The notes beneath the pieces are model-generated. The model was not told the DNA's origin. It saw only the letters and a list, made by a program, of their open reading frames with translations, and did no database searches. From NCBI RefSeq assembly GCF_016695175.1, contig NZ_CP068022.1, positions 1,226,001 to 1,290,000 of the forward strand: 64,000 bases of DNA, written 5' to 3'. Below, in pieces: positions 6,992 to 64,000 of this stretch. The translations under genes and the position numbers were made by a program. The DNA comes from Pseudoalteromonas sp. GCY (GTDB lineage Bacteria > Pseudomonadota > Gammaproteobacteria > Enterobacterales > Alteromonadaceae). Position 1 is the first letter of the stretch. Each line of letters begins with the position of its first letter.

Positions 6992-7627
6992 ATGTATCAG
7001 TTATTTTACTACCCCCGTAATGCCAGTTGGGCACCGCATCTCGTACTTGAGCACCTACAACTAGAAAAAGAACTGCTCTTGGTCGATAGAAAAATACAAC
7101 AACAAAAGTCTGCTACCTATTTAGAACTCAATCCAACAGGACGGATCCCGACATTGGTCGACGGCGACCAAGTCATCTTCGAGAGTGCAGCAATTTGTTT
7201 GCATTTATGCGAAAAGCACCCTGAAGGACAGCTTATCCCAGCGCCAGCAACCCCACAGAGAGCCACGTTTTATCAGTGGCTTTTTTATTTAACCACGACA
7301 GTTCAGCCAGAACTCATGCTGTATTTCTATCCTGAAAAATATCAATTATCTCCAGAGAGCAGCAAGACCATGCCTCAAGTCGCTGAGCAACGAGTCGGCG
7401 ACATGTTTGCACTTATCGACAAGCAGTTAGCAACACACACCTACTTAGTTGGTGAACAGCTCACGCTTTGTGATTATTATTTATTTATGCTGGCCCATTG
7501 GGCTAGTGGGTTTAATACTGCGCCAAAAGAATATGCACATTTGGGCCGATTTATGCGAATGATGGCACAGCAAAAAGTGGTAAAAAGAGTGTGCGAAATT
7601 GAACAAACCGATCTAAGTTTTTATTAG
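6992..7627 (+). CDS. Glutathione S-transferase family protein
   Basis: A 211-residue cytosolic protein with an N-terminal thioredoxin-like GST domain (MYQLFYYPRNASWAPHLVLE with Ser/Tyr candidates; cis-Pro in NPTGRIPTLVDG; the glutathione-binding VIFESAAICLHL) and a C-terminal all-helical domain with the usual LTLCDYYLFMLAHW motif. It would conjugate glutathione or act as a thiol-dependent reductase. It runs divergently from the MerR gene and is followed after 24 bp by an NTF2-like gene, probably in one transcript. Confidence 0.9.
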   Translation: MYQLFYYPRNASWAPHLVLEHLQLEKELLLVDRKIQQQKSATYLELNPTGRIPTLVDGDQVIFESAAICLHLCEKHPEGQLIPAPATPQRATFYQWLFYLTTTVQPELMLYFYPEKYQLSPESSKTMPQVAEQRVGDMFALIDKQLATHTYLVGEQLTLCDYYLFMLAHWASGFNTAPKEYAHLGRFMRMMAQQKVVKRVCEIEQTDLSFY

Positions 7628-7651
7628 CATCCATTACGCCAAGGAGGAAAA

Positions 7652-8020
7652 ATGGAAACCTTAGTGAAAAACTATATCTCAGCCTACAATCATTTTGATA
7701 TTCCGGGAATGCTAGCTCAGCTCACCGATGATGTCGTGTTTGAGAATCTCGCCAATGGCGAAATTACAACGCGTACAACCAGTAAAATGGAGTTTGCAGA
7801 ATTAGCAAATCAGTCAGCTAAGTTATTTTCCGAACGCAATCAATCTTTAACCGCCGCCACGCAAGACAATGATCTGTTTATTGTTCATGTGACCTACAAA
7901 GCTAAATTAGCCAAAGACTTAGCCAATGGCATGAAAGCAGGGCAAAGCATCTCCTTGCAAGGCCGCTCAGAGTTTGCATTTCGTGATGGAAAAATTTGTT
8001 TGATAAGAGATATAAGCTAA
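7652..8020 (+). CDS. NTF2-like (SnoaL) family small protein
   Basis: A 122-residue protein with the SnoaL/NTF2 pattern: an N-terminal helix (VKNYISAYNHFDIPGMLAQL), TDDVVFENL, and alternating strands ending in LQGRSEFAFRDGKICLIRDIS. The family forms a cone-shaped ligand pocket and includes isomerases and orphan binding proteins. A strong AAGGAGG site precedes the ATG. The position behind a GST hints at detoxification, but the substrate is unknown. Confidence 0.8.
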   Translation: METLVKNYISAYNHFDIPGMLAQLTDDVVFENLANGEITTRTTSKMEFAELANQSAKLFSERNQSLTAATQDNDLFIVHVTYKAKLAKDLANGMKAGQSISLQGRSEFAFRDGKICLIRDIS

Positions 8021-8239
8021 CTTCTTACTCCAAACTCGGGTTATTGGAAGTGAATTCAACACAGTTTGCACTAAAACTGGCTGCTAGAAAGGCATTAATT
8101 ATCCAAAATCAGGTTATTAATTTGGCAAAGTCAGCGCGCTTTTCTATGCTGGTTTTGCACTTTCATCATTAATTCATTTCGACATAAGCACTATCTTGCG
8201 ATCAGTCTAAGACGAATTGAAATAAAACGGAGAACAACA

Positions 8240-8614
8240 ATGGGACTATTAAGTGGTCTACTCGGAAATGCAAGTGAAGTAGACAGTAGCGAAGTAGATA
8301 AGTTATTAGCAGATACGCTAATTCAAGGGGAAGAAGTTGCACAAGCTTACAAGGTGATCCGTGACTTGTTTATTTTTACCAACAAGCGTCTAATTTTAAT
8401 CGACAAGCAAGGCATGACGGGCAGCAAAGTAGAAATGCTCAGTATCCCGTATAGCAAAATCACAAAATACAGCAAAGAATCTGCGGGTCACTTCGACCTT
8501 GATGCGGAATTAAAAATCTGGATTGGCTCAGATCCAACGCCGATTAGTAAAGAATTTAAAGCAGGCGACAATATCAACCAAGTGTATAAGATCATTTCAC
8601 AATATTGTTTATAG
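8240..8614 (+). CDS. Bacterial PH-domain protein
   Basis: A 124-residue soluble protein matching the small bacterial PH (bPH/YvbH-like) family: Gly-rich start, GEEVAQAYKVIRDLFIFTNK, RLILIDKQG, EMLSIPYSKITKYS and a final helix with NINQVYKIISQYCL. The role of this family is poorly known. It has an AACGGAG ribosome site. The 219 bp before it hold no gene that I can see. Confidence 0.8.
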   Translation: MGLLSGLLGNASEVDSSEVDKLLADTLIQGEEVAQAYKVIRDLFIFTNKRLILIDKQGMTGSKVEMLSIPYSKITKYSKESAGHFDLDAELKIWIGSDPTPISKEFKAGDNINQVYKIISQYCL

Positions 8615-8638
8615 CCGCATGCAGTTAACTATGAATAG

Positions 8639-8655
8639 GCACGCAGGATGCGTGC
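8639..8655 (+). terminator. Short hairpin after the PH-domain gene
   Basis: GCACGC (8639-8644) pairs with GCGTGC (8650-8655) around a 5-nt loop, 25 bp after the stop. A modest stem and no long T-run, so only a possible terminator. Confidence 0.35.
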
Positions 8656-8709
8656 TTCTACCTCGCACTTTTTTGTCCACTCTTTTATCAATAGATTGCT
8701 GGCTTGGCG

Positions 8710-9069
8710 CTATAACAAATTTGCAGAGTGACCTATCAAGCGCCATTTTTCATCGCTACATAAATACCAAATAGACTGCCTTAGTGCGTCATACGACCTC
8801 TCACCCAAGGTATTTTCCAGTGCGGAGACGTACTCAATCACAACCTTATTGGGACTCTGCTCAACTAACTTATAACCCTCGCTAATTATTTTATGCTCGC
8901 TGAGATCTTCACTCTTCAAGCCTTCAATAATGTCATCTTTCGTCATACCATCACAAAATAGTCCACTTTCTGAAAACTCATCATGGATGTAGTCCGAGAT
9001 CAGATTAATATTTTTTCGTAGCTCTGGCGAATGTAACGCTCGCTCTAAAGCTTCAATTTTATCCAGCAT
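8710..9069 (-). CDS. DUF4440-like (NTF2 fold) protein
   Basis: A 119-residue protein. The text fits the DUF4440 branch of the NTF2 superfamily: an opening IEALERALHSPELRKN, then ISDYIHDEFSESGLFCDG, MTKDDIIEGL, and a closing SIWYLCSDEKWRLIGH. The exact function of this family is not known. It sits downstream of a 40-residue ORF and the GRDP-like gene on the same strand, but a hairpin at 9081-9102 separates them. Confidence 0.72.
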   Translation of the reverse strand: MLDKIEALERALHSPELRKNINLISDYIHDEFSESGLFCDGMTKDDIIEGLKSEDLSEHKIISEGYKLVEQSPNKVVIEYVSALENTLGERSYDALRQSIWYLCSDEKWRLIGHSANLL

Positions 9070-10104: not shown

Positions 10105-11937
10105 ATGATAAAGCAACTTACTAGCATAATTTTATGTTTTGTAATGACGGCATGCGGCAGTGACACAAATGATACAACTCCAACAGATATAACCTCCAAC
10201 AAGCCTCCAACAAATACGCCTTTACCATCATCACCTAAACCCCTTCCTGATATGAGCTTCGACCAAAGCTTTATCGATGATGTCTCTGAGTTTGTTAAAT
10301 TAGCGCATGCTGTTCAGTATTTTTATCCATCGGCCGAGGTAAGAGGTTCGGATTGGTCACTTTTCATCGCGGAAAGCATTGTCGAATTAAACCAAACACC
10401 AAGTACAGAGCGTAGAGAAAAGGGGATTGAACTCATAAGGCAAATTGCGCCTTACATGGTTACACAACAAAACCACATCCCAAAATTGCTCCCTGATACG
10501 CAAACATATACTTGGATACAAAATGCGTCCGCGCATTTCAGCGCTTATACTCGGTTGCTAGTATCAGCTACGTTAGCTGAAATTCAAGAGGAGAAATACG
10601 CCCCCAGCGAGCAATTTGTAACTCTTAACTTTTATCAAAGTCCCCTCTACTTACCACTCTACCTGCCCGTTAAAACTGAACTCTCTGGTGGTACATTCAC
10701 CGAATTAGGCCGTTGGCAGGTTGAATCTAACTTCGCGCGTACCGAAGCTTGTATGGCTACCGTGTCGGGAATGTGGGCCAATATTCAACATTTCTGGCCT
10801 TACTTTGGGCAGATTGATATTGACTGGTCAGCAAGTCTTACACCGTTACTAACCGCTTGCAAAACTGAAGAGCCAGATCGAAGGCTGCAGCTAATTAAAA
10901 CCGAGCTCACTAAATTGAATGACAACCACATTGTTGTTAAGACTCCGGATATGTTTACAGTTAGCTATGCGTACTATGGTACTTTTTTTTACGAGATTGT
11001 AGAGGGAAAAGCCATTGTAACGAGAGTTCAACAAGATGAGCAAACTGGTATCGAAATTGGGGATGAAGTACTTACTATTAATGGTGAAGATATAATAGAA
11101 CATCTATCAAAGAAAGCGCTTTACTCGCTTAAAAATACGCTACATAGGTTGAGCCACACTGCAAGACAAGAAGTTTATTTTAAAGATAAGACCCCTGTTA
11201 ACTTTACCATTAAAAAACCGGCGGGGGAGATTTTTCAGGTAAATATTACACCGCTAGAGCAGAGTGAAGTAAAACCTTTTATCGGATTACCTTACATCCC
11301 CCATTCAACATCAAAAATTGAAGATTTAGGCGACAATATATATAAAATCAATATTTATAACGTTATGCCAGATGACTTGAACGCGATAAAAGAAGCGTTA
11401 AAAAATGCTCATGGCGTTGTAATCGACTTTCGCCATTACCCACAAAGCTGGGACGGATGGCGAAACGTATTAAGTTGGTTTATCAAACAAGATGCGACCA
11501 ATGATACTTGGGCTCTATTATGGCAAGGTGCACCAAATCAAACAGATAAAAAGCTCTACCCCGTTCAGCAAATAATTCATCGAGATGCCAACCCACTTTC
11601 AATTCCATCCATAGTACTTTCTTCTAGAGGAAGTATAAGTCAGAATGAACACGCTTTGGTGTTTGCACGTAGTGGCGGCCTAGCAATCTTAGGGGAGCAC
11701 ACATCAGGGATTAATGGTAACGTTTTTTGGGTTCCGTTTTTTGGCGGTTTAGAAGAGGGCAATCTAGGTGCTGAGTTCCAATACACAGGTATGCTCGCGA
11801 ACCGACATAATGGTGACCCTTTAATCAACGCAGGTATTGCGCCAGATTATTTAGTGCCAAGAACCAGAGAAAGCATTATCAATGGTACTGATAATCAAGT
11901 AGAGCGTGCCATTGATATTCTAAAATCAGAGCTTTAG
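10105..11937 (+). CDS. S41-family peptidase lipoprotein
   Basis: About 610 residues. It starts with a lipoprotein signal (MIKQLTSIILCFVMTACGSD, lipid-carrying Cys17) and a Thr/Pro-rich linker. A PDZ-like stretch is near GIEIGDEVLTINGEDI, then the tail-specific-protease (S41) core: VVIDFRHYP, SSRGSISQNEHAL with the likely catalytic Ser, and GEHTSGINGN. The tricorn/CtpA-like core suggests a periplasmic or outer-membrane-anchored peptidase. The frame opens at 10033, but the lipobox and an AAGGA site support 10105. The 294 bp upstream hold nothing I can name. Confidence 0.8.
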   Translation: MIKQLTSIILCFVMTACGSDTNDTTPTDITSNKPPTNTPLPSSPKPLPDMSFDQSFIDDVSEFVKLAHAVQYFYPSAEVRGSDWSLFIAESIVELNQTPSTERREKGIELIRQIAPYMVTQQNHIPKLLPDTQTYTWIQNASAHFSAYTRLLVSATLAEIQEEKYAPSEQFVTLNFYQSPLYLPLYLPVKTELSGGTFTELGRWQVESNFARTEACMATVSGMWANIQHFWPYFGQIDIDWSASLTPLLTACKTEEPDRRLQLIKTELTKLNDNHIVVKTPDMFTVSYAYYGTFFYEIVEGKAIVTRVQQDEQTGIEIGDEVLTINGEDIIEHLSKKALYSLKNTLHRLSHTARQEVYFKDKTPVNFTIKKPAGEIFQVNITPLEQSEVKPFIGLPYIPHSTSKIEDLGDNIYKINIYNVMPDDLNAIKEALKNAHGVVIDFRHYPQSWDGWRNVLSWFIKQDATNDTWALLWQGAPNQTDKKLYPVQQIIHRDANPLSIPSIVLSSRGSISQNEHALVFARSGGLAILGEHTSGINGNVFWVPFFGGLEEGNLGAEFQYTGMLANRHNGDPLINAGIAPDYLVPRTRESIINGTDNQVERAIDILKSEL

Positions 11938-12053
11938 TCTTATAACAGCTCACTTAATTGAATGATCCGCTTAAATGCTATGACAACAGGTAATTAGTTT
12001 TTAAGTGGACCCAAACTTTATGAACTAACTCAGAATGAGGAGTTAGCGCCACA

Positions 12054-12281
12054 TCAGCTTACCGTACGTTCTGATCGCAGGCAAAAAACCGCAGAAAAGA
12101 GTAAGGAAACAAACACTTGATTCCAAAAGTTAGAGACAAAGGGATCAGCAACAAACTGAGATGCAATATGCCAAATACTCAGGTTTAGCAAAAAACCGAG
12201 TACAAACCCATAGCCTTTGTATTGTACGAGCAATTGCCCCAGTTCTTGCCTAAAACGCTGATATTGAGCTAATTTGCTCAT
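12054..12281 (-). CDS. Two-helix membrane protein (2TM-domain-like)
   Basis: A 75-residue protein: an N-terminal basic amphipathic part (MSKLAQYQRFRQELGQLLVQ) and two membrane helices (about 27-45 and 53-70). It starts 13 bp after the stop of the CadC-like regulator with a CTGGAG site, so the two probably share a transcript. It resembles small 2TM-domain proteins found beside signalling genes; no firm family call. Confidence 0.65.
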   Translation of the reverse strand: MSKLAQYQRFRQELGQLLVQYKGYGFVLGFLLNLSIWHIASQFVADPFVSNFWNQVFVSLLFSAVFCLRSERTVS

Positions 12282-12294
12282 TTTTATACTCCAG

Positions 12295-14430
12295 TTATTG
12301 ATTAGCAACCGTAAGCTCTACCACTTCTTTCTTGGCCGATATTCGATTTATCAACAGTACATCGTTGTCGTTAATGTCGGTGAGATAGTCAACACTGGTA
12401 GGCACTTCGCCGAGTATAGTAAACGACGTTTTGTCCAGATCATAGGACCAAAGTTGATTATCTTCATTGACGCCATATATCCCATTGCCGCGCATTACAA
12501 AAGATTTTCCTCTGCCGCCTTGATTGTTTAGTTCACTGATCCGCTGAGGTTCAACAGCGCCGATTTGCCAAAACTGATCAAGTCTATCCTTATACACAAC
12601 TTTACCGTGTTCACTTTCAAGTGCCCACAGCACAGGTTGCTGCGTCAGTATTTCAAACGATTGTTGAGCAAAATCATAAGCAGCTAACTTCATTTCTCCC
12701 TTTACCCGAATCTGTGTTAGCGCACGTTGTTTTGCACTTTTCCATTGATATAAGCGTAAAACAGGGTAGGCGTGCGGGTAAGATGTCAAGCTGCCATCTA
12801 AAGCAATTCGCGTCAGTACACCACTGGCACTGACTAATATGCTTTGGCCATCCTCAGCCCAGTGGATCCCGCGAACAAAAGTATCTAAGGGGAAGTTAGT
12901 CAGTTGTCGCGTGTTATTGCCATCGCTTAACCACACCTGTTCAGTACCAGAGCGCTCTGACCAAAATGCCACTAAATCTCCATCTGGCTGAAAAACAGCA
13001 TAATCTTCACCAAGGTTGGTTCGCGCAAAGCTGGTGTATGTTTGAGCGCCTTGTGCTAACTGTGCCAGCGGTAATTTGACGATATCGCTGTCGTAAGGCC
13101 CTTTGATCATCAGTACACTTTTGCCATCAGGACGAAATTCAGGCTGCCTCATTCGATCTGAAAACGGCAATTGAATTTTACTCACAAGCCCTTCATAAGT
13201 CAGGCTAAATAGCTGACGTCCGGTACTAAAAATCAATTGCTGGTTGAGTGGGTCAAAACTTGGGTAGATATCGTGAAATTTAGTAATTTCCGGCGGTCGC
13301 TGGATCTGATGGCTAGAGATCAACTCACCGTCGGGTTTTAACATATCAATATAATGTAAGCCATCGGCATGAATACTACTGACCGCGATTAAATCATCTT
13401 GAGGGGAATAAGCGTAATCAATCAACGTCCCCTCTTCTACGGTATAAAGATCGGCACTGCTGTCGTCATCAATGGAATAATTGATCAGCTTCCAGCGCTC
13501 GCCTTGTTTTTGCTTCAATACCACATTGCCATCGTTCAGCCAGATAGGCTTATCAACCACCGAATTTTTACACTGGAGAATAACTTTTGGCTGCTGAGGG
13601 CTTTTCAATGCTTTAGTAAAATCGAGTGTTACAAGGTCGTAGCAGCGTTTTTGTGTAACGGGCTCGCTACAAGCGTCGGTGGCCAAAAACAGTAACTGCT
13701 CACCATCTTTTGAGAAACTATGCCTGCCGTATGCTCCAAAGCGCTCGGTGAGCAGGATCTCTTGCTGGGTATCCGCCTTTTTTGCCCATATCTTATTATC
13801 GCAAAACTTATCTAAATAGCGGTGAAAAACGATGTATTGACCATCTGGGGAATAGCTTGCATCAAATTCTTTATCGTCAGTTGCGGTCAATGAGCGCAAA
13901 GTATCAAAGAACAGTGGTGAAGGTTTTTTGATGGAAAAATATTGATAACTGATAGCCCCAAGCAAAATAGTGAAGGCAAGTAAGACAAACACATAAAGAC
14001 TGAGTTTGTTTTTATTCTGGCTTTGATTGAGGTAATTATCTTGTTGTATTTCAGGTTCAGGGACTGGCATCACCTCAAGTTGCGGCTCAGTATTCGTCAG
14101 CTCGCTCGTTTGCCCTTCCCAACGTACTTCACACTCTAAGCTATATCCTTTTTTAGCATGCGTTTGGATATAACCTTGCACCTTACCATCATCCCCAAGC
14201 GCCTTTCTCAATTGCGCAATACTACGCTGCAAAGTATTAGGAGAGACCACCGTATCTGGCCATACTGTATCGAGCAAGGTATCAAGGCTTATCACTTTGC
14301 CTTGATTCTGAGCCAAGCAAGTGAGTACCGCCAGCGCCTTTGGTGCAAGTGTTTGACATTCACCTTGGTGTGAAATCTGGTTACGTGATAAATCTACAAA
14401 AAAATTACCAACCCAATATTGTTCTACCAT
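12295..14430 (-). CDS. CadC/ToxR-type membrane transcription regulator with PD40 repeats
   Basis: A 711-residue protein. Residues 1-105 form an OmpR/CadC-type winged helix (APKALAVLTCLAQNQGKVIS, TLDTVWPDTVVSPNTLQRSI, HAKKGYSLE). A low-complexity linker leads to one membrane helix near 146-166, and the large C-terminal part carries TolB-like PD40 propeller repeats (DASYSPDGQYIVFHRY, SFSKDGEQLLFLA, PEFRPDGKSVLMIKG). The layout is that of one-component regulators that sense outside and bind DNA inside. It faces an esterase and an exported PD40 protein, its likely targets. Confidence 0.88.
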   Translation of the reverse strand: MVEQYWVGNFFVDLSRNQISHQGECQTLAPKALAVLTCLAQNQGKVISLDTLLDTVWPDTVVSPNTLQRSIAQLRKALGDDGKVQGYIQTHAKKGYSLECEVRWEGQTSELTNTEPQLEVMPVPEPEIQQDNYLNQSQNKNKLSLYVFVLLAFTILLGAISYQYFSIKKPSPLFFDTLRSLTATDDKEFDASYSPDGQYIVFHRYLDKFCDNKIWAKKADTQQEILLTERFGAYGRHSFSKDGEQLLFLATDACSEPVTQKRCYDLVTLDFTKALKSPQQPKVILQCKNSVVDKPIWLNDGNVVLKQKQGERWKLINYSIDDDSSADLYTVEEGTLIDYAYSPQDDLIAVSSIHADGLHYIDMLKPDGELISSHQIQRPPEITKFHDIYPSFDPLNQQLIFSTGRQLFSLTYEGLVSKIQLPFSDRMRQPEFRPDGKSVLMIKGPYDSDIVKLPLAQLAQGAQTYTSFARTNLGEDYAVFQPDGDLVAFWSERSGTEQVWLSDGNNTRQLTNFPLDTFVRGIHWAEDGQSILVSASGVLTRIALDGSLTSYPHAYPVLRLYQWKSAKQRALTQIRVKGEMKLAAYDFAQQSFEILTQQPVLWALESEHGKVVYKDRLDQFWQIGAVEPQRISELNNQGGRGKSFVMRGNGIYGVNEDNQLWSYDLDKTSFTILGEVPTSVDYLTDINDNDVLLINRISAKKEVVELTVANQ

Positions 14431-52162: not shown

Positions 52163-53125
52163 TTAATTATAACTGCTAAGTAATTTTTGCAGTTGTTCCA
52201 AACGCTTATCAGTCAATACTCGATTATCTATTTTCACGGTAACATCACCGCTTTTAAGATTTCTTTGTACTCGAATGTAGTCGTTCTCTAGCATGGATTC
52301 CACACGTGAGTCGCTACTTCCGAAAGTAGTCAAGAATTTGGTGATCTGAACAGCACGTTTCTCATCTGACATCTCTTCTGTCATAAAGTCTTGCGCTTTA
52401 AGTGCAGCAATTTGCTCTGAAAACTGCTCAGGTTGTTCTTGTTTCGCAGTGATGAGCTTTTTAGCCGCTTCACGGCCTAAATGATTCGCAGTTGGATACA
52501 ACTGCAATACTTCGACCGGAATGCTTTCATAAGCTTTCAATGCGTCTGCGATAGCTGTGTGAGAAACACCTTCCACGGCAGCGATTTCTCGATACGATCC
52601 TTTTTGGCCTTGTTCGATCAAGTTATGCTTAGTATCAAAATAGGCTTTACCCAATTCCCAAAGGCTCGGGGCGATGTATTGATCGGAAGATACCGCTAAT
52701 GTTTTTGCATCTTCGTCACTAAAGTCTTTCGAGCTCAACACCACGTAATCTGCTTCGGCCAGCAAACAGGCTTTACGGCGTCTTGAGCCTGATAAAACGT
52801 GAAGTTTGCCATTGTGATGCCAACATAGAGCAGGGTGGAGATTTCGCTTATCTTTTTTAATGGCAGGTAATATATCAGCGACCGCTTTTTCGCTTAATAA
52901 GGATTGCTCGCGGCGATTCTGCCCATAAACGGTGGTTTTACTCTCAATTTCGCTAAACGGCACTACTTCACAGGTCAGTACTATAGTTTTTGTCGGATCG
53001 CTTGGCGCAGGCATAGTAACCACATCGCCTACTTTAGCCTGATCTAAAAGATCGTCGAGGCTACTGCCTTCAACCGCAGTAGCAAAAGGATCTATTCGTG
53101 TGTCATTTTTACGTTTTCTAGCCAT
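52163..53125 (-). CDS. parB: Chromid partition protein ParB
   Basis: A 320-residue centromere-binding protein. N-terminal basic tail (MARKRKNDTRIDPF), ParB/Srx-like domain (VPFSEIESKTTVYGQNRREQ, LHVLSGSRRRKACLLAEADY), then a helix-turn-helix (GSYREIAAVEGVSHTAIADA) and a C-terminal dimer part. This is the plasmid-type ParB; with ParA it moves the replicon to daughter cells. It starts 13 bp after the parA stop. No chromosome-type parS was found nearby. Confidence 0.9.
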   Translation of the reverse strand: MARKRKNDTRIDPFATAVEGSSLDDLLDQAKVGDVVTMPAPSDPTKTIVLTCEVVPFSEIESKTTVYGQNRREQSLLSEKAVADILPAIKKDKRNLHPALCWHHNGKLHVLSGSRRRKACLLAEADYVVLSSKDFSDEDAKTLAVSSDQYIAPSLWELGKAYFDTKHNLIEQGQKGSYREIAAVEGVSHTAIADALKAYESIPVEVLQLYPTANHLGREAAKKLITAKQEQPEQFSEQIAALKAQDFMTEEMSDEKRAVQITKFLTTFGSSDSRVESMLENDYIRVQRNLKSGDVTVKIDNRVLTDKRLEQLQKLLSSYN

Positions 53126-53138
53126 TATTAATACCTTT

Positions 53139-54371
53139 TTATTCTGCTAGCGAGGATTGTGTTGAAGGCCAATTTGAACGGATCAGCATCTCTAATTCAT
53201 CAACCACGTCTTTGATATTTTCTTGCGCTTTTAGCAATGCTTCACGACTTGCTAAACTATCTGAAGTCTTTTGGTCAAAAATTGTGTTAAACGATGAAGA
53301 GCTCGCTGTAATTGCTGAGCTGTGATTGATTGGATAGCTCATTACTTGACGGCCAAAAGCACTACGTACATCTTTAACGATATCGCGCTGAGAATGGTTG
53401 CCTTTAACATAGTTAGTGACCAAGAATTGCATAAAGTCCCAGCCTTCATGACCAAGAGCTGCAACTGTATGGTATATCTCACCAAGACGCTTCAGGTATT
53501 TATTATTAGCGTCGAAGTCTACGGCCTCTGGGTGTACAGGTATTAACATAGCCGTAGACGCCATCAATGCGTTGTAGAACATAAAATTAAGTGAAGGTGC
53601 GGTATCTACTAGGATAATATCAAACTCGTCTTGTACGGGCTCTATAACCTTCTCTTTAAGCTTATGGTAATGACGTGTCTTTTCGTAGCTTGAACTTTCT
53701 TTTAACTCTGTTGCTGTTTCGTGTTCAAAGTAAAAGTCATCCATACCAGAAGGTAATACGCGAATATTTGGAATGTGGGTTTCTTGGAATGAATTAGAGA
53801 CAAGATCTTTCCATGTTTCACCTTCATCTAATTCAATGCAATCTCTCATCAGATCGCCAACCGTGATCGGTTCATGATCATTAGATGGAAAAAAGCTTGA
53901 TGACGATCCTTGTGGATCAAGATCAATGATCCCGATGCGATAGCGCTTAATATTAGTTGTAGCTAGTGCTGCTGCGATATTCACTAAACTTGTTGTTTTA
54001 CCACAACCGCCTTTCAAACTATTAATCACGATGACTTGTAATTTATCGCTAGACTTTCGTTGATCAGCATTTACACCGAGAACATCTGCCATCGCAAAGA
54101 TATTTGCTAATGTGTATGCATAATGACCGTTTGCGCCTTTCTTTATATTGATGGTATCAAAGTCACCTTGGTCATGACGTCTTTTGAGTGTTCTATTATT
54201 TACACCAAGTAGGTCTGCTGCAGCTTTCTGCGTGTAAGTTCTAAGCTCTTTTTCTTCAGTTTTAAGATGAGCTCTATAATGTTGAATACGACCGGCAAGT
54301 GATTGTTCTGCCACTTCTGCTGTAGCTTTTAAGAGCCGGTACGTTGATAGCGCATTGTTATTTATAGACAT
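53139..54371 (-). CDS. parA: Chromid partition ATPase ParA with N-terminal DNA-binding domain
   Basis: About 410 residues. The N-terminal part holds a helix-turn-helix (TYTQKAAADLLGVNNRTLKR), as in type Ia plasmid ParA proteins that repress their own promoter. The deviant Walker A is LKGGCGKTTSLVN near 115, with DLDPQGSSSSFF (A') and ILVDTAPSLNFMFYNAL (B). AAGGA is 8 bp from ATG 54371; an ATG at 54377 lies too close to it. It faces the origin and runs away from it, with parB downstream. Confidence 0.93.
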   Translation of the reverse strand: MSINNNALSTYRLLKATAEVAEQSLAGRIQHYRAHLKTEEKELRTYTQKAAADLLGVNNRTLKRRHDQGDFDTINIKKGANGHYAYTLANIFAMADVLGVNADQRKSSDKLQVIVINSLKGGCGKTTSLVNIAAALATTNIKRYRIGIIDLDPQGSSSSFFPSNDHEPITVGDLMRDCIELDEGETWKDLVSNSFQETHIPNIRVLPSGMDDFYFEHETATELKESSSYEKTRHYHKLKEKVIEPVQDEFDIILVDTAPSLNFMFYNALMASTAMLIPVHPEAVDFDANNKYLKRLGEIYHTVAALGHEGWDFMQFLVTNYVKGNHSQRDIVKDVRSAFGRQVMSYPINHSSAITASSSSFNTIFDQKTSDSLASREALLKAQENIKDVVDELEMLIRSNWPSTQSSLAE

Positions 54372-54578
54372 ACACATTATCCTTTATTTGATAACGATTA
54401 TTATAATGTCCATATATTTTGCTGTAAACACAAAAAAATAAAGACATTTGTAATTTTGATTTACATCTAAGTATAAATAAGAAAGTTTAGATATGGTTAA
54501 GTATATAGGTATTAAAGGCTAAGGCAGAGAAATCATGAACTATCCAACTGTTTTACATCATTTTTTTTAATTTTTATA

Positions 54579-55006
54579 GATCTACTTTTTACTAGGTTAA
54601 GATCAGATCTCTTATAACTCCGAGATCGAAATTTTACTAACTACTATTTAAAAAAGTTATATATGAACAGTTTATGCACAGAATTATTCACAGATGTGGT
54701 AGTGGAGATCAATTTTTTACTAAGTAAGATCAAATAGTTATGCACAGATGATATAAGATCAAGTCCTTTAAGGTATGTATAGATCTGATCTCTACCTAGC
54801 ATAGATCAGATCTTTACTAATTAATGGTAGAGTTTTCCACAAGGACGTCTGGTTTGTCCGTGTAAATCCGCTAAATAGGCCTTAAACAAAGGTTTTTCAG
54901 CGTTAATTTTATCTTTGTTAGTAAAAGCTTGATCTGAAAACGGGCCCTACTTAGTAAAAGAATGATCCCAACAAAAAAAGTTACTTCGGATCACTTTTTT
55001 ACTAAC
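54579..55006. other. Chromid replication origin (ori2)
   Basis: Seven 18-bp iterons with pattern GATC-N4-(T)TTTTACTAA(C/G): direct at 54579, 54624, 54707, 54804 and 54989; inverted at 54917-54934 and 54950-54967. DnaA boxes: TTATGCACA at 54672 and 54738, TTATTCACA at 54684, TTTTCCACA at 54833. There are 14 GATC sites in about 415 bp, far above chance, so Dam methylation probably matters. An 11-bp inverted repeat AGATCTGATCT/AGATCAGATCT spans 54781-54813 (also one copy at 54600). The region lies between parA and the initiator gene, and is AT-rich. Confidence 0.92.
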
Positions 55007-55073
55007 TTTAATCATTAACTTTTTCTGTCGAATATGTTGTTATTAGACGTCATGAAAATTTGGAAGTAAAACA

Positions 55074-56487: not shown

Positions 56488-56500
56488 GAACACATCATAC
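56488..56500 (-). other. Ter site blocking leftward forks (origin-guarding)
   Basis: GAACACATCATAC on the plus strand, i.e. GTATGATGTGTTC on the reverse strand, exactly the same 13-mer as the five copies to the right but inverted. By E. coli polarity it stops forks coming from the right and lets rightward forks pass. It sits 200 bp after the initiator gene. The 318-bp gap 56289-56606 holds no gene. Confidence 0.85.
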
Positions 56501-56553
56501 TTTAATTTGGCCAAGTCACTTAGCACTTGCTATGGACTAGGTTTATCTATCAG

Positions 56554-56569
56554 TATTATGTTAAATTAA
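56554..56569 (+). repeat. 16-mer with dif-like XerD arm, copy 1
   Basis: TATTATGTTAAATTAA, in which TTATGTTAAAT equals the right half (XerD arm) of E. coli dif. The left half does not match dif. An inverted copy lies at 59425-59440. Confidence 0.4.
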
Positions 56570-56606
56570 GTAATATCTCTAAATTCCGTATGAGATCCCC
56601 TCATTA

Positions 56607-57473
56607 TTATTCAAATCTTTCTAAATAAATTCTATCGACTAGAAAGTTGTACTCTCGCTTTCTTGGATGATCATCTTTTTGTGTAAAATGACCTAACTCT
56701 CCAAGTTTAGTGTCTGGGTGCGGGTTAAAGAGTATAAATGGAAGTGCAGCGCTTACATGATAGCGATTTTGAGCTGTATATCTCACATTTACCTCAGGCG
56801 TTACTCTGGTTGGCCTTCTAATTCTAAGCTTTGCATTTTCTGATAGACTAGAAACTCTATATTTTTCTTGTTCTACTAGCTGTTGCCACTTTTCCTGATC
56901 TATCATCCTCGGGTTTGAATAAAGTGAAGAGCGATTCAACATCTCCATAGCAAGTTCTTTACTCAAAACTCTGGTTGCATGTTTTTTCATCCAGGTAAAT
57001 CGAACGGAATAGGGAGCTGTGGATTCGCTATGTATTTTGCGATAGGCAGCCAAAGTCATTAAGTTAGGAACTGCACTATGAACAGCTTCGAATCTGGCAT
57101 CATTGTTAGAAATTTCTAGAATAGCATTTTTAAAATTTTCTTTGGCTAGATTCACAGCATTCACTCTAGACTTGATAATTTCTTTAGGGTCATTTACTAA
57201 CAGAAGACCTGGGAACCTTTGCAATAACTTCCCACTTTCTCGGTCGTTTAAATAGAGATCGCGATAAGCATCTAAACATTTAGAGAGTGCTTTTTCACCT
57301 TCTATTTTTGTAACAGTTATATTTGTTGGAGCGGTTTCTTCATCTTGTTTTTTTATATCAGGCAGTTCATAAAAAGTTGCCTTTTTTATATCAGCTTCTG
57401 TAAGTTCACGGCATAGCTGGCTAATATGTTCATTAAGAATATCGAAGGTAGAACGTATATTAAATTTATTCAT
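56607..57473 (-). CDS. tus: Ter-binding replication terminator protein Tus
   Basis: A 288-residue protein (E. coli Tus is 309). It aligns with E. coli Tus at several blocks from memory: LPDIKKQDE (37-45; E. coli LPEVKKEDE), RFEAVHSAVPNLMTLAAYR (127-145; E. coli RFEWVHRHLPGLITLNAYR) and SENAKLRIRRPTRVTP (211-226; E. coli PQNAKLKIKRPVKVQP). Phe128 and His132 correspond to Phe140 and His144 of E. coli; Arg189 in NPRM probably to Arg198. Tus binds Ter and stops DnaB in one direction. A Ter copy begins 2 bp upstream of its ATG. Confidence 0.93.
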   Translation of the reverse strand: MNKFNIRSTFDILNEHISQLCRELTEADIKKATFYELPDIKKQDEETAPTNITVTKIEGEKALSKCLDAYRDLYLNDRESGKLLQRFPGLLLVNDPKEIIKSRVNAVNLAKENFKNAILEISNNDARFEAVHSAVPNLMTLAAYRKIHSESTAPYSVRFTWMKKHATRVLSKELAMEMLNRSSLYSNPRMIDQEKWQQLVEQEKYRVSSLSENAKLRIRRPTRVTPEVNVRYTAQNRYHVSAALPFILFNPHPDTKLGELGHFTQKDDHPRKREYNFLVDRIYLERFE

Positions 57474-57474
57474 T

Positions 57475-57487
57475 GTATGATGTGTTC
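57475..57487 (+). other. Ter site in the tus promoter, blocking rightward forks
   Basis: GTATGATGTGTTC. By E. coli polarity this is the first site that stops a rightward fork from ori2. It touches the tus start codon region (2 bp away), so Tus bound here should shut off its own gene, like TerB at E. coli tus. Confidence 0.9.
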
Positions 57488-57705
57488 TTATTATCTCTTT
57501 TATATTATACCAAAAAGAATGGAATCTCGCTAAGCGATTTTACTATGAGTACCTAATGGAACAAACTAACAATATCATTTGCACTAGACCTGCATTTGCT
57601 AAATTAAGTTGGATACCTTATTAGAATATCAGTTTGAGAAGTTAGATATCTGACCAATTATTTGCGAATATTTTAGTGATGAGGTATATGTCTATTACTT
57701 AAAAA

Positions 57706-57718
57706 GTATGATGTGTTC
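57706..57718 (+). other. Ter site 2, blocking rightward forks
   Basis: GTATGATGTGTTC preceded by AAAAA, as in E. coli TerB (AATAAGTATG). After 16 bp comes ATTATATCA, as at two other copies. Confidence 0.9.
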
Positions 57719-57920
57719 CCATTGATGTATACAAATTATATCAGAAATACTCTGATAGCTCATATTTATCTTCACTTATTAAACTTTTATTCGGAGCGTC
57801 TAGGTTTTTTTGAGAAATAAAATATCAGCTAGTGAATTTTAAAATAGGAAAATGATTCTGTGTTGTCTTGATGAAACTACTAATTAGTTTTGTGGAGCTG
57901 AGATTGTTTTACTTAACGTT

Positions 57921-57933
57921 GTATGATGTGTTC
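57921..57933 (+). other. Ter site 3, blocking rightward forks
   Basis: GTATGATGTGTTC, followed by N16 and ATTATATCA. Confidence 0.9.
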
Positions 57934-58133
57934 CTTATGGATAGGCTAAATTATATCAAATTTTTTGGACTTTTCCTATAAAATTGGATTTTGATAAATT
58001 TTGGAGGGAGTTCTTAACGGACAATAGTCACTTAAAAGCGGTGGCTAGTAACCACTCAGAATGACAACGCTACTTATCAGCTTTTTGATTAATTTTTAAA
58101 TTTGGTATTGATTTTATATAAATTATAAAATAT

Positions 58134-58146
58134 GTATGATGTGTTC
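58134..58146 (+). other. Ter site 4, blocking rightward forks
   Basis: GTATGATGTGTTC; 213 bp after site 3, close to the 215- and 231-bp steps between the earlier ones. The ATTATATCA tail is eroded here. Confidence 0.9.
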
Positions 58147-59424
58147 CTTAAAGTTCCTCGTGATGATACTCTTTTTTATAAATTAAAGTCAACTTTTGAT
58201 ACTGACAGAGTCTTCTTCTGGTTCAAGATTTTAGTCGTGAAAAACAATAGTAAGTGTTCACTTATTTTGTTTCGACCGAGCACTTTCTGTAGACATGAAG
58301 GTTTGATAAATTCTAGTTAGGCCGGAAAGGGAAGATGATAGATGGTTAGTAAGTGTGTACTCACTTTGCAATAATCATCATTTGGGATCCTTTAAAGGGA
58401 TTGGCTAAATTATAGAGTAGAACACTGAGTTTAATTTTGCACTTTCAAAGAGAACAACCGTACCACTTCTTTTTCTTGGCTATGAATTCTTCGAGTAACA
58501 TTCGCACTTTTGCAGTCGTACCTGACTAAAACCACGAAGACGGTTATAGTACAAGTTTCTTTTTCTACATGCATATGTTCAGTTCGGAGTTGCAACGCAA
58601 GTACTAACTTTATAATAACTAAACCAGCTACTTCAGTGATTGTTTACTGTTATTCAAACTTCACCGGAATAAATACTAATGTCAATGCCGTACTCGATTT
58701 GTAGTGAAGTTAAAATAACGGACAAACACGAGTAGATAGAAGACACATCTCCTGTGCTTTGATTATTTACCTGAATTCATGGTCTGATCGTCAAAGAGCA
58801 AAGTAGACAGAGATCTTTTCAAGCGTCTGAACAGCTTGGTTGAGAACGAGTCAAGCTAGATGTGCTAACTGTTCATGGGAAAATATTTCTGAAATTAACT
58901 GTCCCGAAACTAGTGAGGTTTTTGGAAAAGAAAATAGCATTAAGCTATTAAGCGACTTATACCTAATTATTTTAGGCAAAGTGACTATCCCTTAGTACTG
59001 TAAGAATAAAAAAGTCGTTGTGTTAGACATAAAGAAAAGAGTGAGGGTCAAGAGCAAACTCAGTAGTACTCTTGTTATCAATACCACCTTCTTGCCAGTA
59101 GAATACTTTACTTTATTTATCTGGTTAAGAGATAAGCACTGTGTTACTAGGTTGCTCGGCGAGATCTCGCCGTTTCAATAAGATAGTTTAATCAAGAAAA
59201 TTTATTTTATTTAAATAACCCAGTGCATTGAAGAAAAATCCTTTCAGTATTGAGCTCTCATTGGAGGAGAGGCCTGTTGGAAGTATCTAAACGCGTTATT
59301 ACTTCCAAAAACTATATACCATATGTGATTAGTACTCATAGCTATCACTATATGACTCATTTTTCTCTCGCTTCCTTATTACTCATGAAATGCGACTATT
59401 AACTAGTCTGAACTTAAAAAACCA

Positions 59425-59440
59425 TTAATTTAACATAATA
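59425..59440 (-). repeat. 16-mer with dif-like XerD arm, copy 2 (inverted)
   Basis: Reverse complement of TATTATGTTAAATTAA. Same XerD-type half-site as at 56554, opposite direction, outside the inner fork trap. No left dif half is seen. Confidence 0.35.
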
Positions 59441-59834
59441 ACGGGGCTAAAATCAGTGTGTCATCTTTGTATATAAATGCTTTGTCAGACGATTTGCTGA
59501 AGCTGTAGGGTGGGATCCCGCTTGCTCACAAATTCTTGAATTGACTTCCATTCGTCCGCGCAACTAATCAAGGTACTCAAAGTGAAAAACAAGACGCCGA
59601 CAAGATTATCTTTGATATTGGTATAGGTTCTTCAATTCACTCTAAAATGAGTGATGGTACTCATTATAGCGACTTAAAGACTAGATTATAAAAGTCCGAT
59701 ACTCGTCAACTTTAAGTCCCGTTTTGTGCTCGCAGGAAAGATGTATTAAAAACCATCATATCTTAAGTAGGACGGTACTGTGGTTAATTTTTAAAATAGT
59801 TTAGCGAATGTATCAAATTAGTAAACACTAATAT

Positions 59835-59847
59835 GTATGATGTGTTC
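59835..59847 (+). other. Outermost Ter site, blocking rightward forks
   Basis: GTATGATGTGTTC, 1.7 kb beyond site 4 and 96 bp before the DAHP synthase gene. A last back-up in the same direction as the four inner sites. Confidence 0.9.
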
Positions 59848-62282: not shown

Positions 62283-64000
62283 GTGCAAGACTACGTTCTC
62301 TGGTATCAAGAGTTGGGTATGCAAGATGTACCTCGAGTTGGTGGTAAAAACGCTTCTCTAGGTGAAATGATATCTAACCTTGCTAACGCTGGTGTACAAG
62401 TACCTGGTGGATTCGCAACAACTGCTGATGCGTTTAATGAATTTCTTGAGCAATCAGGCCTCAATGAAAAAATCCACTCAATCCTAGATACTCTCGATGT
62501 TGACGATGTCAACGAATTAGCCAAAGTCGGCGCCCAGATTAGACAATGGGTTATCGATACACCATTCCAACCAGAATTAGATAAAGCAATCCGTGAGGCG
62601 TATAGCCAGTTACACGGTGACGCAAGCCAAGATGTCTCCTTTGCTGTTCGTTCATCAGCAACAGCAGAAGATATGCCAGACGCCTCCTTCGCTGGCCAAC
62701 AAGAAACTTTCCTAAATGTTCGTGGCATTGATGCCGTAATGGTCGCTATCAAGCATGTTTTTGCTTCGCTATTCAATGACCGTGCAATTTCTTATCGTGT
62801 ACACCAAGGCTATGATCACAGAGGCGTGGCGCTTTCTGCTGGTATTCAGCGTATGGTGCGTTCGGACAAAGCGTCATCTGGTGTTATGTTCTCAATCGAT
62901 ACCGAATCAGGCTTCGAAGACGTTGTCTTCGTTACTTCTAGCTATGGTTTGGGCGAGATGGTAGTTCAGGGCGCAGTAAACCCAGATGAATTTTATGTTC
63001 ATAAGCAAACACTTGCAAAAGCAAAACCTGCTGTTCTTAAGAGAAATATTGGCTCAAAAGCAATCCAAATGATTTACTCAAGTGACGAGTCTCACGGTAA
63101 ACAAGTTGAGATTGTTGATGTAGACTCAGCACTATCTAACCAATTCTCGATTACAGACGCTGAAGTAGAAGAGTTAGCAAAACAAGCTGTTATTATCGAA
63201 AAGCACTACGGTCGTCCAATGGATATCGAATGGGCAAAAGATGGTAATGACGGCAAGCTTTATATCGTTCAAGCCCGTCCAGAAACCGTTCGTTCAAATG
63301 AAGATGCGAACGTAATGGAACGCTTCCAGCTAAAATCAAAGTCTGAAGTTATTGTTGAAGGTCGTGCTATCGGTCATAAGATTGGCTCAGGCGTAGTTAA
63401 AGTCCTGTCTTCAATTGATCAAATGGACTCGGTAAAGCAAGGCGATGTACTTGTTACTGATATGACGGATCCTGATTGGGAACCTATCATGAAGCGTGCC
63501 TCTGCTATCGTAACGAATCGTGGTGGACGTACTTGTCACGCTGCAATCATTGCGCGTGAGCTGGGGATCCCAGCCGTGGTTGGATGTGGTAATGCAACCG
63601 ATTTGATCACCAATGGCGACACGGTAACAGTTTCATGTGCTGAAGGCGATACAGGTTATATCTATAAAGGTGAACTTGAATTCGATGTTATTTCTTCTCG
63701 CATCGATTCAATGCCAGCTATTCCGATGAAGATAATGATGAACGTAGGTAACCCAGATCGCGCGTTTGATTTTGCGAAGTTACCACATGCAGGTATCGGT
63801 CTTGCGCGTCTTGAATTTATCATCAACCGTATGATTGGTATTCACCCTAAAGCACTACTTCATTTTGATAAGCAAGATGCAGAGCTACAGGCTGAAATTA
63901 AAGAGCTAATCGCGGGATATGAATCACCAGTAGAGTTCTATATCAGCAAGTTAGTTGAAGGTATTTCTACGCTAGGTGCAGCATTTGCTCCAGAGCGTGT
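62283..64000 (+). CDS. ppsA: Phosphoenolpyruvate synthase (3' end outside window)
   Basis: About 572 codons are present of about 790. The text follows E. coli PpsA closely: [60 protein letters not shown] and the phospho-His loop [20 protein letters not shown] (His419). The enzyme makes PEP from pyruvate with ATP for growth on C3 acids. The start is GTG 62283 with GGAG seven bases before it. Divergent ppsR regulates the enzyme. Confidence 0.96.

Follow-up and report, generated by a model that had tools for sequence, protein, structure and literature searches.

Among described systems, those closest to the one treated here are the Tus-Ter fork trap of Escherichia coli, together with the type I traps of Edwardsiella and Dickeya, and the Tus-Ter arrangement of plasmid R1. 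We analyzed a 64,000-nucleotide stretch, hereafter the window, of the chromid of Pseudoalteromonas sp. GCY (positions 1,226,001 to 1,290,000 of the 1,291,188-bp contig C1), in which six identical copies of the 13-mer GTATGATGTGTTC lie beside a tus gene and close to ori2, the chromid origin. The system is a variant of the Tus-Ter fork trap that had been suggested earlier, that we did not find located in open-licence texts, and that reaches wider than a preliminary description of this DNA had claimed.

With the E. coli system it shares the family and fold of Tus, a site that starts with GTATG-N-TGT, a site adjoining tus, and an inverted pair around dif, a recombination site, on the main chromosome. 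It differs in the second half of the site, which is GTTC here, whereas we take that of E. coli to be AACTA; in a chromid-borne tus, with one Tus presumably serving two replicons; and in an in-line array that lies 2.4 to 13 kb from the origin, not opposite it. Plasmid R1, which uses its host's Tus, likewise replicates one way by the theta mode and has Tus-Ter next to its origin, but its single ter stops the returning fork, whereas the conserved sites here face the outgoing fork, occur in six in-line copies and share their replicon with tus. The RTP-terminator system of Bacillus subtilis is also a polar fork trap with an autoregulated terminator gene, although its protein and sites are unrelated.

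Pseudoalteromonas chromids replicate mostly one way, as judged by sequencing depth (Xie 2021, PMC7858055), and one-way replication has been measured for the chromid of P. translucida (PMC13342612). Three two-way strains, all of one clade, are described in PMC7858055, whose passages on replication mode left open whether one or two forks leave ori2. A ter site by tus at the Pseudoalteromonas ori2 was suggested earlier (PMC8347550, PMC10331603), and a figure in PMC10331603 marks it with a question mark; the passages concerned differ from the present account in giving no sequence, number, strand or chromosome copy. When the E. coli consensus was searched for in the chromid of P. tunicata, no ter was found (Xie 2021, PMC7858055), and the 13-mers described here are most likely the Ter sites that this search missed. 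In open-licence PMC full texts, a scope that leaves supplements and subscription papers outside, we found no paper naming a Pseudoalteromonas Ter sequence.

Six identical 13-mers beside ori2

The locus runs in the order parB-parA-ori2-repA-inverted site-tus-in-line sites, of which the following features bear directly on the fork trap.

54378..55073, no strand assigned: ori2 region, 696 bp, the gap between parA2 and repA (repA-adjacent position as in PMC7858055)
55074..56288, plus strand: repA, chromid initiator (role from PMC7858055)
56488..56500, minus strand: predicted Ter site, inverted; exact 13-mer, which would stop a leftward fork after circling
56607..57473, minus strand: tus, replication terminus site-binding protein, 288 amino acids (PF05472, E=3e-78; similarity to E. 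coli Tus)
57475..57487, plus strand: predicted Ter site 1, facing ori2; exact 13-mer, 1 base from the tus start codon
57706..57718, plus strand: predicted Ter site 2, facing ori2; exact 13-mer
57921..57933, plus strand: predicted Ter site 3, facing ori2; exact 13-mer
58134..58146, plus strand: predicted Ter site 4, facing ori2; exact 13-mer
59835..59847, plus strand: predicted Ter site 5, facing ori2; exact 13-mer

The preliminary description had reported six identical 13-mers, one of them opposite in strand to the other five, and a pattern search returned precisely these: exact copies at 56488(-) and at 57475, 57706, 57921, 58134 and 59835(+). The trap of about 1 kb with tus inside that it proposed measures 987 bp, from 56488 to 57475, and does contain the gene. 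The 13-mer opens with GTATG-N-TGT, which we take to be the start of the E. coli Ter core, with the cytosine of GC(6) numbered accordingly. No seventh exact copy of GTATGATGTGTTC exists in the 64-kb window, where the next best matches, with two mismatches, are at 62851(+) and 15431(-). With up to three mismatches allowed, 25 matches occur in the window, where shuffled sequence gives a mean of 16.8 (standard deviation 4.2), so the signal consists of the six exact copies. The only tandem repeat between 54300 and 60000 is one of 23 bp at ori2; the 13-mers are therefore not a tandem array. The E. coli Ter core AGTATGTTGTAACTAA was discarded as a candidate site, having 56 matches within three mismatches against 70 for the reversed control and none within one mismatch.

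The genome (5.47 Mb) consists of the chromid and one further contig, C2, of 4,181,162 bp. It carries nine exact copies of GTATGATGTGTTC and none of the reversed pattern, where chance would give about 0.16 per genome under uniform composition; allowing one mismatch added one match, and four matches to the control. A whole-genome search for more copies, proposed as a check on the first description, thus yielded three outside the window, which are not randomly placed. One, at C1:2973(+), lies across the contig join, 10.7 kb to the right of 57475, and forms a sixth in-line site; the other two, at C2:2101153(-) and C2:2131731(+), bracket the dif-like site of the main chromosome (dif1) in trap order. 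No open frame longer than 80 codons crosses any of the three. The claim of a complete trap near the origin therefore holds as far as it goes, but the system is larger than that, with an in-line site 10.7 kb out and a pair on the main chromosome. The whole is real, strongly non-random and biologically coherent.

The Tus homologue

The protein encoded at 56607-57473, which had been named as a Tus homologue from its translation, is one by profile, sequence and fold. Its match to PF05472 covers residues 6-284 and scores 263 bits, where the cut-off is 22 (E=3e-78), and in Pfam it matches the Tus family alone. Both NCBIfam Tus equivalog models fall short of their cut-offs (NF002810, 251.5 of 323 bits; TIGR02648, 124.1 of 178.3 bits), which makes it a divergent member. 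It matches the sequences of E. coli Tus structures with E=2.2e-26, and a structure model with a predicted local distance difference test score of 81 and a predicted template modelling (TM) score of 0.73 retrieved E. coli Tus in all four PDB matches with E<0.001 (E from 4.7e-23 to 6e-24, TM-score on the query 0.71-0.74). Presumably, F140, H144, I79 and G149 form the C(6) pocket of E. coli Tus; the counterparts of the first two, F128 and H132, are invariant in 16/16 aligned Tus proteins, while the positions of I79 and G149 are occupied by L and N in the window protein.

Further Tus proteins, 26-33% identical, are found on other contigs (G013:C3, G037:C3, G005:C3, G030:C85, G087:C188 and others) and on small plasmids (H26 and H27), such as the 64.8-kb plasmid of P. 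translucida TAC125. These second proteins perhaps have Ter sites of their own.

Distribution and orientation across the genus

The exact 13-mer is present in all 108 genus genomes examined, with 518 copies against 3 of the reversed pattern, and Tus in 107 of them. When 13-mers were counted over the 1.5 kb upstream of tus, without reference to the motif, GTATGATGTGTTC came out as the most frequent, in 62 of the 64 loci that have at least 1 kb of upstream sequence. There is overlap and relatedness between the 73 named tus loci and the genus genomes, so these counts are not independent events. Outside the genus, only 7 of 188 genomes from the family carry the 13-mer, in one copy each. Eleven of the 188 encode Tus-family proteins (for example, G173:C1:2060130-2060981, G221:C2 and G242:C7), and none of these eleven has the 13-mer; their Ter sites therefore presumably differ. 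In G173, a single contig of about 4.1 Mb, tus lies about midway along.

Across the 73 loci, 163 exact sites upstream of tus face ori2, and none on that strand lies on the ori2 side. Of the inverted exact sites, 19 are upstream, in the vicinity of tus, and 4 are downstream. Farther than 300 bp upstream of tus, 56 loci have 83 exact sites, every one of which faces ori2. An ori2-facing site lies within 706 bp of the tus start in 71/73 loci, and more than one in-line site is present in 56/73. The two loci without an ori2-facing site, L190 (sp. P1-9) and L191 (sp. G4), both belong to a lineage whose skew indicates two-way replication. The earlier proposal that the layout could enforce one-way replication thus gains comparative backing.

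The closing inverted site fared less well. It is present in the window, but it is a feature of the species group: its counterpart is exact in just 23 of the 73 loci, altered in 33 and absent from 17. The altered forms read GTAAG (22), GGATG (7), GCATG (2), GTAGG (1) and GTACG (1), so that the changes fall on the second or fourth base of GTATG, the fourth being what we take to be position 9. When position 9 of TerB is changed to CG or GC, much of the arrest is lost, and TerI and TerJ, which have AT at this position, are doubted (PMC8707476); since position 9 is changed in 24 of the 33 altered sites, we expect these 24 to be weak. It is the barrier facing outward that is conserved, not the closed trap.

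A related set of 13-mers, which keep ATGATGTGTTC and have lost the first G, is found between repA and tus in P. rubra-type loci, with 28 copies in 5 of the 73 named loci and 1 to 12 copies per locus. The loci concerned are L148 (11484-13741), where they sit in 176- and 309-bp repeats, L141 (11924-12998), L193, L135 and L143, together with L092, which has 11 (11514-13538), and L091, which has 10 (7473-8989). If the lost G belongs to GC(6), the base that we presume to act in locking, these sites might bind Tus without locking it, acting as a sink or as a soft brake.

An inverted pair flanking the dif-like site of the main chromosome

The two chromosomal copies, C2:2101153(-) and C2:2131731(+), are 30.6 kb apart and enclose a dif-like site at C2:2115490, near which the raw GC skew of the chromosome flips (+0.019 in 2100001-2120000, -0.042 in 2120001-2140000). 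A dif of the E. coli type had no match in the genome within three mismatches. The dif-like sequence has a perfect XerD arm, and a search of 33 mostly complete genomes found relatives in 32 of them and a match on the main chromosome in 29. G044, G055, G099 and G102, which lack a dif1 match, and sites with one mismatch were left out of the following count. The main chromosomes of these 29 genomes carry 53 exact sites, each on the trap side of dif1, where it would admit forks but not release them; dif1 is flanked on both sides in 23 genomes and on one side in 5 (including one without tus, G003), while 1 genome has no such site. The innermost traps around dif1 are 22.8 to 143.8 kb wide. Two perfect XerD arms in the window, at 56556 and 59428, were considered as the chromid's dif (dif2) and set aside, with no convincing XerC arm by eye.

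The same order recurs on contigs that lack tus: among the matches listed for 68 genomes, and judged by eye, those with exact sites on both strands have them in the order -,+ in 43/43 cases. Two of these pairs (G021:C30 and G029:C29) are less than 4 kb wide, and G096:C124 is probably a chromid; other contigs without tus have sites on one strand only, such as G046:C1, with two on the plus strand. The blocking face can thus be read from the site layout, independently of E. coli, because the opposite polarity would fence off dif1 from both forks. The main-chromosome trap is presumably served by the same chromid-borne Tus.

One genome lacks any Tus match. In G003, a single contig of 3.63 Mb, the dif-like site at 2312578 is flanked by an exact site at C1:2342679(+) and by one at C1:2287514(-) that is changed to GTACG (span 2287514-2342691); no RepA match was found there in a search run without a positive control. 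This pair looks like a relic, one member of which has changed in its GTATG half, as expected after the loss of Tus.

Replication direction and a lineage with two-way skew

Because raw GC skew also follows gene strand, we used a strand-corrected skew, i.e., the third-position skew averaged over open reading frames (ORFs) of both strands, with a mechanical ORF caller and bootstrapping over stretches; raw skew was given up as a boundary marker near ori2 for the same reason. The raw skew of the window's own chromid (genome G000) is negative in all 18 stretches sampled between 64 and 1168 kb, and is -0.005 and +0.007 in the two stretches adjoining ori2. The corrected skew of this chromid is -0.087 (-0.116 to -0.054) and that of the G102 chromid +0.125 (0.090 to 0.158), while the two arms of the G000 chromosome have +0.099 and -0.079. 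From these values we infer that the chromid of strain GCY replicates one way.

G044 and G099 behave otherwise. The arms of their chromids have corrected skews of +0.078/-0.087 and +0.091/-0.081, respectively, as in two-way replication, and the tus loci fetched from them contain no site within two mismatches. Both instead carry a pair opposite the origin: 825066(-)/926045(+) around dif2 at 862568 in G044, and 737392(-)/849851(+, one mismatch) around dif2 at 819264 in G099, with midpoints 0.493 and 0.497 of the way round the circle, counting from ori2. G044 has an extra exact site at 304188(-), permissive to the native fork, and two more chromid sites with one mismatch. Two drafts whose RepA is 99-100% identical to that of G044 and G099, namely, G063 and G096, are also without sites by tus. 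The RepA of this two-way lineage is 86-88% identical to that of G102 and G103, which keep the ori2-side sites.

Skew was pooled over 50 of the 73 loci, i.e., those of full length, with L190 and L191 excluded. The segment beyond the array (-10 to -3 kb relative to tus) has a corrected skew of +0.132 (0.115 to 0.152; 146 ORFs), close to the +0.135 found on the far side of the origin, a value with only two minus-strand ORFs; the DNA outside the array therefore looks as if copied by the fork that goes the long way. Between the array and the far side, the pooled values are +0.054, -0.020 and -0.054. In the species group of the window, dif2 lies 110-154 kb from tus. The arc between dif2 and the array has the long-way sign in G075 (+0.059, 0.037 to 0.079), and the sampled part of the dif2-tus arc in G000 is near zero (25 ORFs).

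G061:C2 (L087, L194-L203, L214-L225) combines ori2-side sites with a distant dif2 and possibly represents an intermediate between one-way and two-way chromids. It was dropped as a clean test between dif2 and Ter, its corrected skew being uninformative, at 0.010, over both arcs.

Proposed mechanism and its alternatives

Taken together, these data make it very probable that GTATGATGTGTTC is the Ter site of the genus and that the ori2-side array enforces one-way replication of the chromid; for this window itself, too, enforcement by the array is the most likely account. Here, the chromid-encoded Tus would bind GTATGATGTGTTC, and the six in-line sites (the five in the window and C1:2973) would turn their blocking GTATG end to the rightward fork from ori2. 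Strand separation at that end would free C(6) and lock Tus, as in the mechanism described for Tus-Ter (PMC8707476). The leftward fork would copy the rest of the chromid, re-enter the array through the permissive faces of the sites and terminate where it meets the held fork. With the inverted partner exact in only 23/73 loci, such a meeting is probably how the returning fork ends in general; in this species group, site 56488 would be a backstop against run-on into ori2. The same Tus would act in trans on the inverted pair around dif1, an ordinary fork trap. In single-molecule work cited in PMC8707476, a lone E. coli TerB failed in 52% of cases, which would explain why in-line sites are multiple in most loci (56/73).

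In-line sites would serve a purpose only if a second fork leaves the origin in their direction, so their conservation argues that ori2 makes two forks. We somewhat favor a broader reading in which ori2 fires both ways and the position of Ter decides the direction of a megabase replicon, loss of the array and gain of an antipodal pair having turned one lineage two-way with its initiator kept, and one Tus policing the ends of both replicons. An array beside the start point would explain why the second chromosome is copied in one direction. The candidate Ter site is now base-exact, present in 108/108 genus genomes and checked for orientation in 73 loci; added to this are a second trap, on the main chromosome, and a lineage whose replication mode changed along with the position of its sites.

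Several observations weigh against this reading. Only 9 of 16 aligned Tus proteins retain the arginine at the position of E. coli R198, and the inverted site is absent from 17 of 73 loci. No chromosomal site within one mismatch exists in G061 or G099, and G044 has a single one-mismatch site; as G044:C1, G099:C1 and G061:C1, all from genomes with divergent Tus, lack an exact Ter pair, the main-chromosome trap is not universal. The parA/parB segment by ori2 has a corrected skew of -0.054 where a positive value is expected, a misfit that involves five minus-strand ORFs. For the roughly 9 kb outside tus, raw skew in the pooled loci is mostly of the blocked-fork sign, and the raw skew of the window is positive from ori2 to its right edge; only the correction for gene strand, to which we attribute this conflict near ori2, reverses the pooled result. 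The raw skew of the G075 dif2-array arc is mixed, with 4 of 7 stretches positive. G061, finally, keeps two ori2-side sites while its dif2 lies about 410 kb from tus, and of the 14 stretches between dif2 and ori2, 10 have negative raw skew.

Two alternatives accept the 13-mers as Ter sites, so that the probabilities given here are not exclusive. Replication of plasmid R1 begins with two forks, of which one is halted almost immediately, while the other runs on to a single origin-proximal ter that stops it (PMC8347550). By analogy, RepA or ori2 itself might start or keep one fork, with Tus-Ter only stopping the returning fork and preventing over-replication; initiation, and not Ter, would then set the direction. 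A return-blocking inverted site does exist here (56488) and, exact or altered, in 56/73 loci. Yet the conserved orientation lets the returning fork pass and stops the outgoing one, which would be pointless without an outgoing fork; the return-blocking site is missing from the other 17 loci; and RepA is still of the same type in the two-way lineage (86-88% identity to G102/G103). We therefore regard such an arrangement as unlikely, though still to be taken seriously. In the other alternative, replication mode depends on where insertions have moved dif2 (a proposal of Xie 2021), and not on Ter; we consider it improbable. The two-way chromids do have an antipodal dif2, and G061, with a dif2 distant from ori2, shows a change of raw skew close to that site. 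With dif2 110-154 kb from tus, the G075 arc nonetheless keeps the long-way sign in corrected skew (+0.059), a point qualified by the near-zero value of the sampled G000 arc, and dif is, to our knowledge, not a fork barrier.

Alternatively, the 13-mers could be no fork barriers at all but operators through which tus regulates itself, or sites for a different protein such as RepA, ParB or a regulator. Site 1 does lie one base from the tus start codon, from which it follows that Tus may also repress itself, and one ter site of E. coli has a regulatory role at tus as well (PMC10331603); autoregulation may thus be an added role of the 13-mers. As their sole role, either function is very improbable, given that sites up to 10.7 kb away hold the same strand, that pairs bracket dif1 on another replicon, and that the two-way lineage has none at tus. 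Scarcely credible is a polarity reversed relative to E. coli, with a permissive GTATG end, for which we found no support, since in the 43 -,+ contigs it would fence off the DNA between the sites from both forks, including dif1 where it was located, and the antipodal dif2 pairs would be fenced off likewise. Arrest of the rightward fork at the GTATG faces of Tus-bound 13-mers thus remains the account that we prefer.

Neighboring genes and the origin region

The partition genes complete the locus on the far side of ori2.

52163..53125, minus strand: parB2, chromid partition protein (NCBIfam ParB/RepB/Spo0J models, best E=2.6e-26, below the curated cut-offs)
53139..54377, minus strand: parA2, chromid partition ATPase (NCBIfam partition_RepA, E=9.1e-63, below the curated cut-off; AAA_31, E=2.7e-26)

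The region 54378-55073 is taken as ori2 because minimal-replicon tests in two other species identified the repA-adjacent gap as the origin (PMC7858055); the gap between parA2 and repA is 695-851 bp long in the 10 relatives measured, and the first in-line site lies 2.4 kb from it here. The repA product matched no Pfam or NCBIfam family. A RepA homologue adjoins tus on the same side in 72 of the 73 named loci, with no match in the remaining one. By eye, the ori2 region contains repeated GATC motifs of the AGATCTGATC type together with CTTAGTAAAA-like repeats.

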